Source: an uncultured SAR116 cluster alpha proteobacterium (GTDB taxonomy: Bacteria > Pseudomonadota > Alphaproteobacteria > Puniceispirillales > Puniceispirillaceae). Taken from it: a stretch of 64,000 bases of DNA. This document shows positions 7,145-63,600 of this stretch, one piece after another (the stretch's first letter is position 1; every line of letters begins with the position of its first letter). The notes under the pieces were generated by a model that was not told the DNA's origin, made no database searches, and worked only from the letters and a program-made list of their open reading frames with translations. Location: the NCBI GenBank assembly GCA_902632595.1, contig CACPDC010000002.1, forward strand, positions 62,001 through 126,000, read 5' to 3'. Position numbers and translations under genes: made by a program.

Positions 7145-8047
7145 ATGCCCCAGAATAGTACTTATTTTTCATTCAACACTCGTTTTGAAACAACCACATT
7201 GGACGCTTTCGTAATAACAGAGCCGTCTCTTCTAAAACCAGAAAAGGTCGGTGGTGAAAATTTAAATTCCCCTATTATTTTGTCAGTTCCACATGGAGGT
7301 AGATTTTACCCATCTGAGATGATTAAATATGCAAACTTAAAGGAAATGCGAACACTTGAAGATATTGGTTCGGATGTTATTGTTATGCCTTTAATCAACT
7401 CTGAGCAGTCAGCTATTAAAGCGAATTGTAGTAGAGCAATTATTGACGTAAACAGACCAAAAACAGCACTTGATCCAAAATTAAACCCTATCGCTTACAA
7501 CGGAAAATTTCCAAATCCGAAAGATAGATGGCAACGATACATAAATTCTGGTTATGGGGTTATACCGCGTCTTTCCTCGGGCCGTCACCCTCTGTACAAA
7601 ATGGAACCAACAATATCATCAGTTGAAAAAAGGATAAAATACTGGCATCAGCCTTTTCATCAATTAATATCTGAAGCTGTAGATGAAGCACAAAAATTAT
7701 TCCAAAAAACCTTATTATTAGATATTCACACTATGCCGCAATCATCTCCTGAACTTCCAGATATTGTGATAGGTAATTTAAATGGGGTTAGTGCTTCGAA
7801 AGAATTTATTTACTTAATTACGAATATTCTTGAACAATTCGATTTAACATACTCTATGAACATACCTTATGCGGGTGGATACATCACAGAACATCATGGG
7901 GACCCAAGTGAACATAGACATGCTATCCAAATAGAAATAAATAGAAACCTTTATTTGAGTAAAAATTACATAATTAATAATAAAAATATTAATGAGTTAA
8001 GTGAGGTACTTAAGAGAATTATTGAATCTGTAAGCTCTGTTTGCTAA
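7145..8047 (+). CDS. N-formylglutamate amidohydrolase
   Basis: Zinc-dependent amidohydrolase of 300 residues. Family motifs: I-L-S-V-P-H-G-G-R-F-Y-P near residue 50 (metal ligand His), A-I-I-D-V-N-R-P near residue 99, L-L-L-D-I-H-T-M-P near residue 195 (metal ligands) and the G-G-Y-I-T-E-H-H-G-D-P segment near residue 243. Hydrolyses N-formyl-L-glutamate to formate and glutamate, the last step of one histidine-degradation route. No other hut genes are visible nearby, so it may act on other N-acyl amino acids. Convergent with der. Confidence 0.88.
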   Translation: MPQNSTYFSFNTRFETTTLDAFVITEPSLLKPEKVGGENLNSPIILSVPHGGRFYPSEMIKYANLKEMRTLEDIGSDVIVMPLINSEQSAIKANCSRAIIDVNRPKTALDPKLNPIAYNGKFPNPKDRWQRYINSGYGVIPRLSSGRHPLYKMEPTISSVEKRIKYWHQPFHQLISEAVDEAQKLFQKTLLLDIHTMPQSSPELPDIVIGNLNGVSASKEFIYLITNILEQFDLTYSMNIPYAGGYITEHHGDPSEHRHAIQIEINRNLYLSKNYIINNKNINELSEVLKRIIESVSSVC

Positions 8048-40853: not shown

Positions 40854-40885
40854 CATTCTGCTAAGTTTGCATAAATGCGGTGCAA

Positions 40886-40902
40886 TTTTTGCATCGCAAA
40901 AA
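40886..40902. promoter_or_regulatory. Second inverted repeat, upstream of LysR
   Basis: TTTTTGC-ATC-GCAAAAA, 7-bp perfect arms, 40 bases before the likely LysR start at 40943. It may be an autoregulatory site. Confidence 0.45.
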
Positions 40903-40942
40903 CAAAAAAATAACGAAAACTTATTACAGGACTTACTTTAAT

Positions 40943-41860
40943 ATGCGTTATCTAACTACTCTTAAATATATAGATGTTGTAGCCAAAGAGGGTTCCATTA
41001 GAAAAGCTGCCGACCGCCTTGCTATAACTTCAACTGCGCTAAACCGCCGTATATTGGCAATTGAAGATGAGATAGGACACCCATTATTTGAGCGTACACC
41101 AGCAGGAGTGCGTTTAAACACAGCAGGTGAATTGTTTGTGCAACATATCCGAAGTCAGATGTCAGATGTAAACCGAGTATTATCGCAAATATCAGATTTA
41201 TCAGGTATACGCCGAGGACATGTAAGGATAAGTAGTGGTCCTCAGACAATAAGCGCTTTCCTTCCAAGAGAGATTGCCAGATATCGGGAAAAACACCCGG
41301 GAGTAACATTTCAAGTGTTAAGGAAAAACTCTCAATCAGCTGTAGAATCGTTAGTGAGTCATGAAACTGATACAGCTATTATTTTTGAATCTTTGCTTCC
41401 CTCTGATATTCAAATAGTATCGTCAGTTTCCCAGATAGTACAAATTATAATGTCACCTGAACATCCGTTAGCCAGCAAAAAAACATTGAGACTTCAGGAC
41501 TGTCTCGGCTGGCCAATATTAATGCCTAGTGAAAATGAGGGAATCAGAACATTATTGAATGTTGGTCAGGTTCAGCAAGCAACACCACTACAAACTATCA
41601 TTGAAGCGGATTCTTTTGACATGATGGCAAATTACTTAATCTTTGAAAACGCCTTGGGGTTTCAAATTCCGATAAGCATCAAGGGTCAATATGGAATTTA
41701 CAGCCACTTAAAAGCAATACCCCTAGACCATCGTGACTGTAAGCCTGGATTACTGCATATCGCTCAGTTAAAGGGGCGCGTGTTACCGGTTGCAGCTGCA
41801 AAGTTTCAGGATCAATTAGTACAACGGTTTAACGAAGCATTCCCAGAAGACACAATATAA
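40943..41860 (+). CDS. LysR-type transcriptional regulator
   Basis: 305 residues from the ATG at 40943; the frame extends upstream but the HTH starts here. Winged HTH: T-L-K-Y-I-D-V-V-A-K-E-G-S-I-R-K-A-A-D-R-L-A-I-T-S-T-A-L-N-R-R-I. Rest is the periplasmic-binding-protein-like effector domain. Divergent from glnK with palindromes between them, so it may control the nitrogen operon or itself; that is inference. Ends a few bases before a bidirectional hairpin. Confidence 0.9.
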   Translation: MRYLTTLKYIDVVAKEGSIRKAADRLAITSTALNRRILAIEDEIGHPLFERTPAGVRLNTAGELFVQHIRSQMSDVNRVLSQISDLSGIRRGHVRISSGPQTISAFLPREIARYREKHPGVTFQVLRKNSQSAVESLVSHETDTAIIFESLLPSDIQIVSSVSQIVQIIMSPEHPLASKKTLRLQDCLGWPILMPSENEGIRTLLNVGQVQQATPLQTIIEADSFDMMANYLIFENALGFQIPISIKGQYGIYSHLKAIPLDHRDCKPGLLHIAQLKGRVLPVAAAKFQDQLVQRFNEAFPEDTI

Positions 41861-41863
41861 AAA

Positions 41864-41886
41864 AAGAGAGGGTAATACCCTCTCTT
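41864..41886 (-). terminator. Strong intrinsic terminator (serves microgene, perhaps LysR)
   Basis: AAGAGAGGG-TAATA-CCCTCTCTT, 9-bp stem. On the minus strand it is followed by a T-run, exactly as an intrinsic terminator needs, and it sits 30 bases after the microgene stop. On the plus strand it can also follow the LysR gene. Confidence 0.85.
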
Positions 41887-41916
41887 CCGTGTTTAGTGGT
41901 AGGAATGTATTGTTAT

Positions 41917-42003
41917 TTAGAATTCGGCCCCCAGAAAGAAGCTGTTCTCCTGCCAAGCTTTAACTTCCACAAACATTTCCACCGTACTTTCAACACTAGA
42001 CAT
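41917..42003 (-). CDS. 28-residue microprotein / possible RiPP-like precursor
   Basis: A tiny ORF (start ATG 42003, stop TAA 41919-41917). Peptide begins MSSVESTVEM and ends FFLGAEF: acidic with central aromatic residues and one Trp. It is unusually well supported for its size: a near-perfect Shine-Dalgarno AAGGAGGTG with the ATG five bases after it, a possible promoter upstream, and a strong terminator just downstream. Size resembles PqqA-like precursors but the E-x3-Y core is absent and no pqq or radical-SAM gene is in the window. Too short for a database family call. Chance ORF is unlikely given the flanking signals. Confidence 0.65.
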   Translation of the reverse strand: MSSVESTVEMFVEVKAWQENSFFLGAEF

Positions 42004-42063
42004 TTGACCACCTCCTTTCGCTATTTTCACATTAGAATTTGTATGCTACAAACCCTCAATTTT

Positions 42064-42093
42064 ATTAAACCGTGAACAGAACCAACAGGTCAA
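42064..42093 (-). promoter_or_regulatory. Candidate promoter of the microgene, overlapping an inverted repeat
   Basis: Minus strand TTGACC (42093-42088), 18-base spacer, TTTAAT (42069-42064). The -35 overlaps one arm of an imperfect inverted repeat, ACCAACAGGT (42081-42090) and ACCTGT-GG-TTGGT (42117-42129), which could be an operator or an RNA fold. Confidence 0.4.
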
Positions 42094-42298
42094 TTATTCA
42101 TTTGAAAATCACCCCTACCTGTGGTTGGTTTTTCATCTATTGAGATTTAAATTAAAGTAATGTCTATTTTTTACTGCTTTTATAGCCATAAATTAGCGTT
42201 GATTACTGTTTTTACATCTAACTGGATCGAAAGAATTAATATTAATACCACAACTTCTGTGATTTTTGTTAATAACCGCCTCTAAGCTTTTAAATACT

Positions 42299-60624: not shown

Positions 60625-63600
60625 ATACCTTTATTTCTGCAGCTTTTGCTCGGCCAAGTGCAATCGTTTTTAGTCTGCTGATAATATTTTTCATTGGTTT
60701 AAACTCAACTATCAATATTCCTAAAGAATCTAGCCCTGATATTGATATACCGGTGGCATATGTCTCCGTGAATTATTCAGGCATTTCTCCAGAAGATTCT
60801 GAAAAGCTATTAGTCAAACCCCTCGAAAAACATCTGAGATCTATAGCAGGTCTGGAGAAAATGACTGGTGTTGCGGCGGAGGGCTACGCTTCAATTACGC
60901 TTGAATTCTTGGCGGGCGAAAATATGGACTTAGCATTAGATGATGTTAGAGAGGCAATAGATAATGCAAAATCAGACTTACCGGAGAAAGCTGATGAACC
61001 AGTAATCTACGAAATATCTTTATCTTTGTTTCCAGTGCTCACAGCAGCGATTTATGGCGATGTTCCAGAAAAATTATTAATATCCAAAGCAAGAGATCTG
61101 AAAGAAAAAATTGAGGCTATTGACGGTGTCTTAGAAGTCGATATAGGCGGAGACCGCACGGAAATAGTTGAAATATTAATCGACGCAGCAGCGCTGGAAA
61201 ACTATGGCGTAAGCCCAACAACCGTTATTGGATTAGTCTCCGCCAACAATCAACTAGTTAATGCTGGAGCGATTGATACAGGTTCTGGACGTCTTTTAGT
61301 TAAGGTTCCTGGTGTGCTCGAAACTGTCCAACAACTGACTGATTTACCAATCAAAGTGGGAGAAAAAACAACTTTAAAATTTGGGGATATCGCAACTGTA
61401 CGAAATGCGTATTCCGATGCAGAAAGTTGGTCACGTGTTAATGGAAGTGCTGCAATAGTATTGGATGTGAAAAAAAGAGTGGGAGCAAACGTAATAGAAG
61501 TCGTGAAAGCCTCTAAAAAGCTCATTGATAAAGATATAGAAACCATTCAGGGTACCACCGAAGTAAGCTATCTCTATGATGACTCCCAAAGTGTTTTAAA
61601 TTTACTCAATGACCTTGGAAATAACGTAATTGCTGCCGTACTTATAGTAACTATTTTAATTGTTGCTAGTCTTGGACTCAGAAATGCTCTGATAGTCAGC
61701 TTGTCAATACCTGGGAGTTTTCTGATTGGTATATCTTTGATTTACTATTCTGGAATCACCATGAATATAGTAGTATTATTTTCCCTAATTTTAGTCGCCG
61801 GCATGCTCGTTGATGCTGTAATTGTTACCACAGAGTACGCAGACCGAAAAATCAATCAATCGGTGAATAAAATTGATGCCTATAAACAGGCTGCCATGCG
61901 CATGTCATGGCCAATAATTGCATCTACTGTCACTACCTTAATGGTTTTTCTTCCATTGCTTTTCTGGCCAGGAGTAATAGGTGGATTTATGAAATATCTT
62001 CCTATTACAGTTATTTTCGTATTATCTGCTTCACTTTTAATGGCGCTAATTTTTGTGCCTGTATTAGGCTCTATTTTTGGCAAATCCAATACTGCTGAAA
62101 ATAGAAAGGTATATAAAACAGCACCAAGGATTTATAGATGGCTTTTGAAAAGAGCTATTAAGTTTCCATTAACAGTAGTTGCGATTGTTATTGGATTTAT
62201 GTTCGCATCATTTGCAGGTTATTTTTCCGCAGGGCTCGGCGTATCATTTTTTCCAGATATTGAGCCAGAACAAGCTATCGTTCAAGTTTTATCAAGAGGC
62301 GATTTATCAGCAGCAGAAAAAGACAAGCTATTACAGCGTGCTGAAGGACAGATTATTGGAATGGACGGAATATCTGCAGCTTATGCCAAATCAGGGCCAG
62401 GAGATGGGCAAGAAGCAAAAGATTCGATAGGAAAAATAAGAACCGTTTTTATGGATTGGCAAGAGAGAGATAAGGCCTCGGCTCTTATTGAAAATATGCG
62501 TCAGAAATTAAACAATCTTGCTGGAGTTAAAATAAATGTGAAAGCCCAACAAGATGGTCCTGGCAGTGAGTCTCCCATAAATATAGAAATTTACGACGAA
62601 AATCTAGATAGCGGAGCAAAAGCAGTAGACCAGATTATAGCATTGATGAGAGAATTAGGTGGGTTTGTTGACATAGTTGATAGCCGTCCATTACCTGGTA
62701 TTGAATGGACTATTGCATTTAATAGAGATATCGCTAGCAGATATGGTGTTTCAATCAGTTCACTTGGAGATATGTTAAAATTGCTTACTAGCGGTGTCGA
62801 AATAACCGATTATCGACCACAGGAAAGTGACGAGGAGTTAGAAGTAAAATTAAGATTCCAAGAAGATCAAAGAACTTTGAGTAGACTCCAGGAAATTAAA
62901 GTGCCAACAGCTTCTGGAGATTATGTGCCATTATCTGTCTTTGCAAATTTAATACCGCAGAAGACTGGTGGAGAAATTCAAAGAAAGAATGGACGCAGAT
63001 TTTATTTCATAACATCAGACGTCGGACCAGACGTTCTACCTGCAGAACAGATAGAAAAATTACAAAAACTTATACAAGAGGGTTCATTAGGTGATGGTCG
63101 TGAAATTTTATTTGGTGGTGAAAGTGAAGACATCGAAGAAACACAAACATTTCTAGGACAGTCATTTTTGCTTTCACTTTGTCTGATGGTTCTCACTTTA
63201 ATGGTTTTGTTTAACTCTACTTGGCAAACCTTCGTTACAATGTCAGCGATCGTTTTATCGACTGGGGGTGTGTTTCTTGGATTGTGGTTGGTTGGTCGAC
63301 CTTTTGGGATTGTTATGTCTGGTCTTGGAATAATTGCGTTAGCCGGGATTGTTGTTAATAACAATATTATCTTGATAGATACTTACAATGAGTATTTAAA
63401 AAAGGGATACAAACCGAGAAATGCCGCTTATCATGCTGGGATCGTTAGGTTCAGGCCAGTGATACTTACGGCAATAACTACTATCCTTGGCTTGGTTCCA
63501 ATGGTGTTTGAGCTAACCATTCTATTTGCAAAAAGAACGGTTTTATTTGGAGCACCCTCCTCGCAATGGTGGACCGATCTGTCAAGTACCATAGCAGGAG

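Follow-up and report, generated by a model that had tools for sequence, protein, structure and literature searches.

A candidate CC2171-like small RNA with a strong ribosome-binding site and a short drifting reading frame in a SAR116 alphaproteobacterium

The locus and its surroundings

The minus strand of the window (the whole 64,000-nucleotide stretch analysed, positions 62,001 to 126,000 of contig CACPDC010000002.1 from an uncultured SAR116 cluster alphaproteobacterium) carries a 28-codon open reading frame (ORF; ATG 42003–42001, TAA 41919–41917) for the peptide MSSVESTVEMFVEVKAWQENSFFLGAEF, preceded by an extended Shine-Dalgarno (SD) sequence and followed by a terminator hairpin (Table 1). 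An earlier sequence-only reading had proposed a self-contained microgene here; the minus-strand 28-codon ORF was confirmed at these positions and the description of a self-contained unit with a conserved short ORF was borne out. A tblastn search with the peptide recovered matches in seven of the ten genomes of the same genus, including its own (63–68% identity in the other six), and the six relatives share the same syntenic neighbourhood, with LysR on one side in convergent orientation and a Bcr/CflA-type MFS gene on the other in divergent orientation, which places the gene beyond chance. One match outside the genus (G029, E = 0.08) falls within an open frame of 945 residues and was discounted as fortuitous. 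The flanking genes examined were LysR, MFS, P-II, and S-methyltransferase. The three same-genus genomes without the peptide (completeness 80%, 61%, and 95%) also gave no LysR match at E ≤ 1e-60; the convergent LysR gene (window 40880–41860) and the RNA are both present in seven of the ten genomes and both absent in the other three. Overall, the tiny gene is real, and what has been conserved looks like a folded small RNA (sRNA) with an exceptionally strong ribosome-binding site and a short, drifting frame.

Table 1. Parts of the structured RNA unit and their positions in the window
Feature	Position	Strand	Basis or remark
Whole structured RNA unit, CC2171-like	41854–42031	minus	about 178 nt; full-length match of model R1
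Promoter-like TTGACC-18-TTTAAT	42064–42093	minus	sequence; genus comparison
Extended Shine-Dalgarno GAAAGGAGGTGGTC	42006–42019	minus	computed 16S duplex; module conservation
28-codon ORF, ATG to TAA	41917–42003	minus	in-frame stop conserved
Closing stem, 5′ strand GUGUU, shortly after the start codon	41992–41996	minus	pairs with 41889–41893
Closing stem, 3′ strand AACAC, adjoining the terminator stem	41889–41893	minus	partner is 41992–41996
Long hairpin holding most of the ORF	41895–41988	minus	RNAalifold, seven genus members
Apical hairpin (loop 41941–41944)	41926–41959	minus	part of the long hairpin 41895–41988
Intrinsic terminator hairpin	41862–41888	minus	scan; kept in 7/7 genus members

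Both ends of the unit were compared among its relatives. The promoter elements that had been proposed, TTGACC (42093–42088) and TTTAAT (42069–42064) 18 nt apart, are present in the sequence, and by eye TTGAC is kept in 7/7 genus members, with a TTTA hexamer after 17 nt (four members) or 18 nt (three members); because this spacing varies, the -10 element is kept only loosely, and the pair was not listed by the promoter scan, which gave four sites in the window compared with 8.3 in shuffles. A promoter belonging to the RNA unit itself is likely. The inverted repeat reported over the promoter (about 42080–42130) is found in the window, but is not visible by eye in the aligned upstream regions of the six relatives. 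Upstream of the promoter, a block at 42128–42152 (minus strand, AATCTCA-T-ATGAAAAA) hardly varies among the seven genus members and may be where a regulator of the RNA or of the divergent MFS gene acts. At the other end, the terminator was present as claimed, with a stem of 11–12 bp, slightly longer than the 9 bp first given, and, on the minus strand, a tail rich in T. A terminator scan of the window returned two sites that are alternative registers of one hairpin. Shuffles gave 2.4, which leaves the hairpin taken alone within chance; it is supported by its retention in the six relatives.

The SD had been described as near-perfect and the best in the window, and this held: the duplex with an assumed alphaproteobacterial 16S 3′ tail was computed at −25.7 kcal/mol over 14 base pairs, compared to −17.6 kcal/mol for the best of the 49 other ORFs compared (window ORFs ≥150 aa, each scored at the best start found within its first 40%). 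A 16S-end pattern gave no match in seven genomes. AAAGGAGGTG has a single occurrence in the window, with both strands counted. The start module AAGGAGGTGRTC-NN-ATGTCNAG was present in 44 of 61 genomes of the family and in 9 of 11 genera (reversed control, 0), a slightly longer form with ≤3 mismatches in 50 of the 61, and the module with ≤1 mismatch in 94 of 385 genomes of the class (control matches, 0). Carriers among the matches listed (at least 118 stretches) include Sphingomonas, Bradyrhizobium, Mesorhizobium, Methylobacterium, Paracoccus, Ruegeria, Brevundimonas, and Bosea. As the motif by which the copies were gathered contains the start codon, the start codon itself is no evidence, whereas the position of the stop is.

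Module sites also occurred in other settings. Viral contigs held 25, many of them ahead of longer ORFs of other kinds, and five contigs filed as viral (L263, L264, L266, L274, and L279) carry Bradyrhizobium-type copies with ORFs of 14–16 codons, perhaps from prophage-flanking host DNA. In L254 (Azospirillum sp. B21), L099, and L102, the module is followed by ORFs of 59, 58, and 56 codons, respectively, with a signal-peptide-like hydrophobic N-terminus; this may be a lineage whose module now drives a small secreted protein; alternatively, the gene may be unrelated and share only the start. Gene neighbours were common to groups of loci only and not across groups. In Rhodobacterales loci, L145 and L152 among them, the RNA follows a Vut_1-type transporter gene, a neighbour common to 18 loci, and in a group of nine loci it mostly precedes a gene that has an RF-1 domain and looks like the ribosome-rescue factor ArfB.

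Conservation of the reading frame and of the peptide

The position of the stop codon was examined in 200 copies, of which 191 have an in-frame stop at codons 14–31, compared to 44 and 37 for the other two frames and a mean of 58 (maximum, 77) in shuffles. Sequence clusters (n = 39), made to allow for kinship and uneven sampling of the copies, gave the same picture (36 in frame; other frames, 8 and 5; shuffles mean, 11.3; maximum, 20). Three copies with open frames of 141, 136, and 109 residues (L159, L165, and L214, respectively) were left out before the ORF-length tests, an omission that favours the conserved-stop reading, and with these added back the count is 191 of 203; a Gemmatimonadota record (L187) was retained in the copy set. 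The nine copies with ORFs >31 codons consist of six among the 195 copies of ≥140 nt and three among the five shorter, truncated copies. No gap columns fall inside the ORF in the three genus alignments, compared to 3/21, 4/30, and 8/52 columns after the stop. Further, the ORF reaches the terminator in none of the 169 copies with a detected terminator (median distance, 55 nt; smallest, 1 nt), a set obtained with the looser of two versions of the terminator finder, the first of which detected 138 of 200.

The amino acids did not follow the frame. The sequence-only reading had proposed to check whether amino acids are kept over bases, a check that failed in the six 28-codon ORFs of the window's genus, where pairwise differences at codon positions 1, 2, and 3 numbered 72, 62, and 64, and again across nine groups of alignable ORFs, in which the third codon position was the least variable in five, intermediate in two, and the most variable in the remaining two. 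The synonymous share of single-base codon changes ranged from 0 to 0.47 over the groups; the highest value (133/280, in the genus g9), along with the two of nine groups in which the third position is the most variable, would allow for some, weak coding constraint in g9. After the module, the peptides are completely different between genera, and a peptide profile run over the class matched 2 of 385 genomes, namely the window's own and a second at E = 0.007, where the match was confined to positions 1–16. The motif GAGCAGCC was found exactly in 28 of the 200 copies (11 from one genus; shuffles, 0.26), where it is read 11 times in frame 0, once in frame 1, and 16 times in frame 2, and since this one RNA hairpin motif gives EQP or SSL depending on the clade, a selected peptide is hard to reconcile with it. 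The sequence-only reading had named the loss of the ORF in close relatives, with a drifting SD and hairpin, as the outcome that would speak against the gene; instead, SD, hairpin, and frame are kept and the amino acids alone drift. The comparison shows an ORF that is kept as a device, with no selection for amino acids over bases.

Fold and relationship to CC2171

RNAalifold returned 53 pairs for the window's genus (seven members; four pairs with double-sided changes), 45 for g9 (five with double-sided changes), and 60 for g6 (ten with double-sided changes). Counted over the helices minus the small SD hairpin, and for structures that came from the same alignments, which favours them, double-sided cells numbered 6 in the window's genus compared to 1.9 in shuffles and 19 in g6 compared to 8.6, with 0 of 500 shuffles as high in either case. 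When partners were slid, pairing fell from 95.6% to 53–67% in the window's genus and from 93.4% to 42–56% in g6. Further pair types in the window's genus showed no excess over shuffles (225/500). The closing stem GUGUU/AACAC is invariant in the window's genus and by clade takes the forms GTGTT/AACAC, GTGAT/ATCAC, CATTGTC/GACAATG, and CATGGTT/GACCATG, with both sides changed. With one copy taken per class, the mean closing-stem score was 7.04 compared to 5.19 with shuffled partners (0/1000), and under crude anchoring only 12 of 47 classes had helices of ≥5 pairs, where shuffles averaged 3.7 and peaked at 11. When the comparison was restricted to the window's family, the score was attained in 4 of 1000 shuffles. 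The comparison among copies shows a conserved fold with compensatory changes.

At Rfam gathering thresholds, nothing was found in the window but a tRNA. CC2171 (RF01867; gathering threshold, 75 bits), which is catalogued by Rfam as a sRNA of Caulobacter, matched in register the window copy (L076) at 19.1 bits (E = 2.7; model positions 1–159) and two other copies from the family at 28.2 bits (L052; E = 0.015) and 24.9 bits (L086). Because its score falls far under the cut-off, and those of the two other family copies fall under it as well, the window RNA is named CC2171-like, a distant homologue and not a member. Across the 385 class genomes, the CC2171 model matched 95 at E ≤ 0.01, 13 of those over the cut-off, and missed the window copy. 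Start-module matches lay inside CC2171 matches in 79 of 95 cases, 68 of these at offset 9, and among the 16 outside are those of the window and of the four members of its family that were sampled; conversely, 28 of 107 CC2171 matches, several of them weak, are without the module. A match below the cut-off in Deinobacterium chartae, one of 14 named control genomes, was taken as chance.

The relationship was also approached from the other side, using a covariance model (R1) built from 11 copies of g9 only, a genus other than the window's. In a search of 53 chosen sources that included the window and 13 loci above the Rfam CC2171 cut-off, R1 matched from end to end at 41854–42031 of the window, with 51.5 bits and E = 1.4e-10, and recovered 10 of the 13 loci at E ≤ 0.01 and 12 at E ≤ 1, with L129 missed. 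Across the order, 83 of 136 genomes matched at E ≤ 0.01, some through weak matches alone. A 5′ module in register, reciprocal detection, and a closing stem between the start region and the terminator were all found, and, taken alone, the statement that the window RNA is a distant homologue of the alphaproteobacterial CC2171 is very probably correct. Of the 385 class genomes, 13 exceed the cut-off, 95 match at E ≤ 0.01, and 94 have the module, which suggests that RNAs related to CC2171 reach well past the Rfam cut-off.

CC2171 is a barely studied family whose open-access mentions are table entries, and no function for it was found in the open-access literature. It is listed among covariation-improved structures, with one extra pair, in a table of the Rfam 15 paper (PMC11701678), and excerpts of PMC5988900, PMC4287350, and PMC11005374 contain no mention of 2171.

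Proposed translation of the RNA, alternatives, and known systems

The reading preferred here, held tentatively and at somewhat less than even confidence, is of a sRNA whose ribosome-loading ORF crosses its own hairpin, such that translation would gate the fold. In this reading the unit is a small structured RNA that ends in a terminator of its own and likely has its own promoter, presenting a near-maximal SD and a start codon at its 5′ end, from which a short ORF (14–31 codons in most copies) climbs the 5′ arm of the long conserved hairpin, crosses the apex, and stops in the 3′ arm ahead of the terminator. Ribosomes would load efficiently at the start module, and a translating ribosome would melt the long hairpin; in the window the stop codon lies 22–24 nt beyond the apical loop (41944–41941), so that the apical hairpin would be covered by a ribosome terminating there. 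The RNA would alternate between translated and folded states according to ribosome supply, with the peptide as a by-product, and the folded or the opened form would then act on a putative partner. Translation acting on the RNA itself would be the best explanation because the start is strong, the ORF passes through its own hairpin, and the peptide is free to drift; a kept stop position with an unkept peptide is an unusual combination. A wider reading, which is more doubtful, holds that for an RNA spread over many alphaproteobacterial orders, translation without a selected product would be the regulatory act, with the ribosome as a ligand that switches the RNA between melted and folded forms. 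If true, an RNA with the ribosome as its ligand would be a sensor of free initiating ribosomes.

Among the alternatives, a plain sRNA that pairs with targets or with a protein, its start module serving as the seed and its ORF incidental, is unlikely but retains the best standing. The cataloguing of CC2171 as a sRNA and the conserved fold are in its favour, as is the assignment of an expressed Mesorhizobium huakuii candidate, MH_s33, to RF01867 in a table of PMC5596092. It is further favoured by ribosome profiling of Caulobacter, in which, according to an excerpt of PMC4117421, most ncRNAs are intergenic and untranslated, with two earlier predicted ncRNAs translated as an exception. An incidental ORF, however, should not keep an in-frame stop, a gap-free ORF, and a normally spaced initiation codon. 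Less probable again is a ribosome or 30S decoy, an RNA that binds the 16S 3′ end or occupies initiating ribosomes and for which the short ORF would offer a quick exit. The duplex of 14 base pairs computed with the assumed 16S tail and a module conserved while the peptide drifts are as such a decoy would have them, but the conserved long hairpin and apical motif are left unexplained, and titrating ribosomes would demand very high abundance of an RNA present in a single copy.

It is improbable that the peptide itself is the product, as a functional microprotein or a RiPP precursor of the kind raised by the sequence-only reading, with the structured RNA as its mRNA. Peptides of the genus share MSSVxS...AWQxNSFFLGA over five aligned sequences (L007 with R in place of W), ORF length is conserved, and the Azospirillaceae-type copies have ORFs of 56–59 aa with a hydrophobic N-terminus. 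Against these points, the ORFs have no codon signature, bases and not amino acids are kept, the peptides are unrelated between genera, and the shared C-terminal motifs amount to one RNA hairpin read in differing frames. The peptide had no Pfam match at E ≤ 1 and no NCBIfam match at E ≤ 10, which agrees with the earlier statement that the peptide is not PqqA; the PqqA/RiPP reading was rejected on the absent family match and the absent codon signature. Searches with the peptide strings gave no match in the open-access literature.

It is very improbable that the RNA is a sponge for anti-SD sRNAs of the alphaR8 (SisA–D) type. These RNAs have a conserved UUUCCUCCCU core and are sponged in Caulobacter by CrfA, according to excerpts of PMC12559287; the module pairs with the UUUCCUCCCU core over 5 pairs at −8.7 kcal/mol, compared to −25.7 kcal/mol with the assumed 16S tail, and the proposal was rejected on this weak pairing, extended complementarity with the core not having been found. 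The alphaR8 core had three one-mismatch matches in the window, where 4.43 are expected, and is not beyond chance. A gene for N-formylglutamate amidohydrolase, the usual neighbour of alphaR8 RNAs in the account excerpted from PMC12559287, lies at window 7145–8047, and the core was not found nearby. Least probable is control in cis of a downstream gene by a leader peptide or attenuator, as the earlier suggestion of a regulatory leader would have it, because, for all its attenuator-like outline of short ORF, hairpins, and terminator, the downstream LysR gene in the window is convergent, the nearest downstream ORF at 106 class-wide loci (a count that includes three unrelated loci dropped later) is on the opposite strand at 55 and on the same strand at 51, which leaves no consistent co-oriented partner, and neighbours are shared within groups of loci only.

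The window RNA can be set beside known systems. PqqA and other RiPP precursors are similar in length to the 28-codon ORF, but differ in that the window peptide is without a family match and without a codon signature. Dual-function sRNAs and sRNA-encoded peptides, as excerpted from PMC5521070, resemble it in having a short ORF and a strong SD on a sRNA; for the sRNA-encoded peptides scored there, coding is seen partly by amino-acid conservation, a signal that the window RNA does not have. CrfA and the alphaR8 RNAs, by the description in excerpts of PMC12559287, are likewise alphaproteobacterial sRNAs with pairing regions of SD or anti-SD-like sequence, and CrfA, compared here by that description, pairs with alphaR8 via a G/A-rich stem loop, whereas the window module fits the assumed 16S 3′ end far better than it fits the alphaR8 core. 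CC2171 shares with the window RNA the 5′ module (A)AAGGAGGUGAUC-NN-RUG-UCU in register, a similar length, a terminal hairpin, and a closing stem placed after the start codon and ahead of the terminator, and the Rfam consensus of CC2171 is readable as a 22-codon GUG ORF ending in UAA. The two differ in the closing stem itself (GUGUU/AACAC in the window and CAUUGUC/GACAAUG in CC2171), in the start codon (AUG and GUG, respectively), and in the middle of the RNA.
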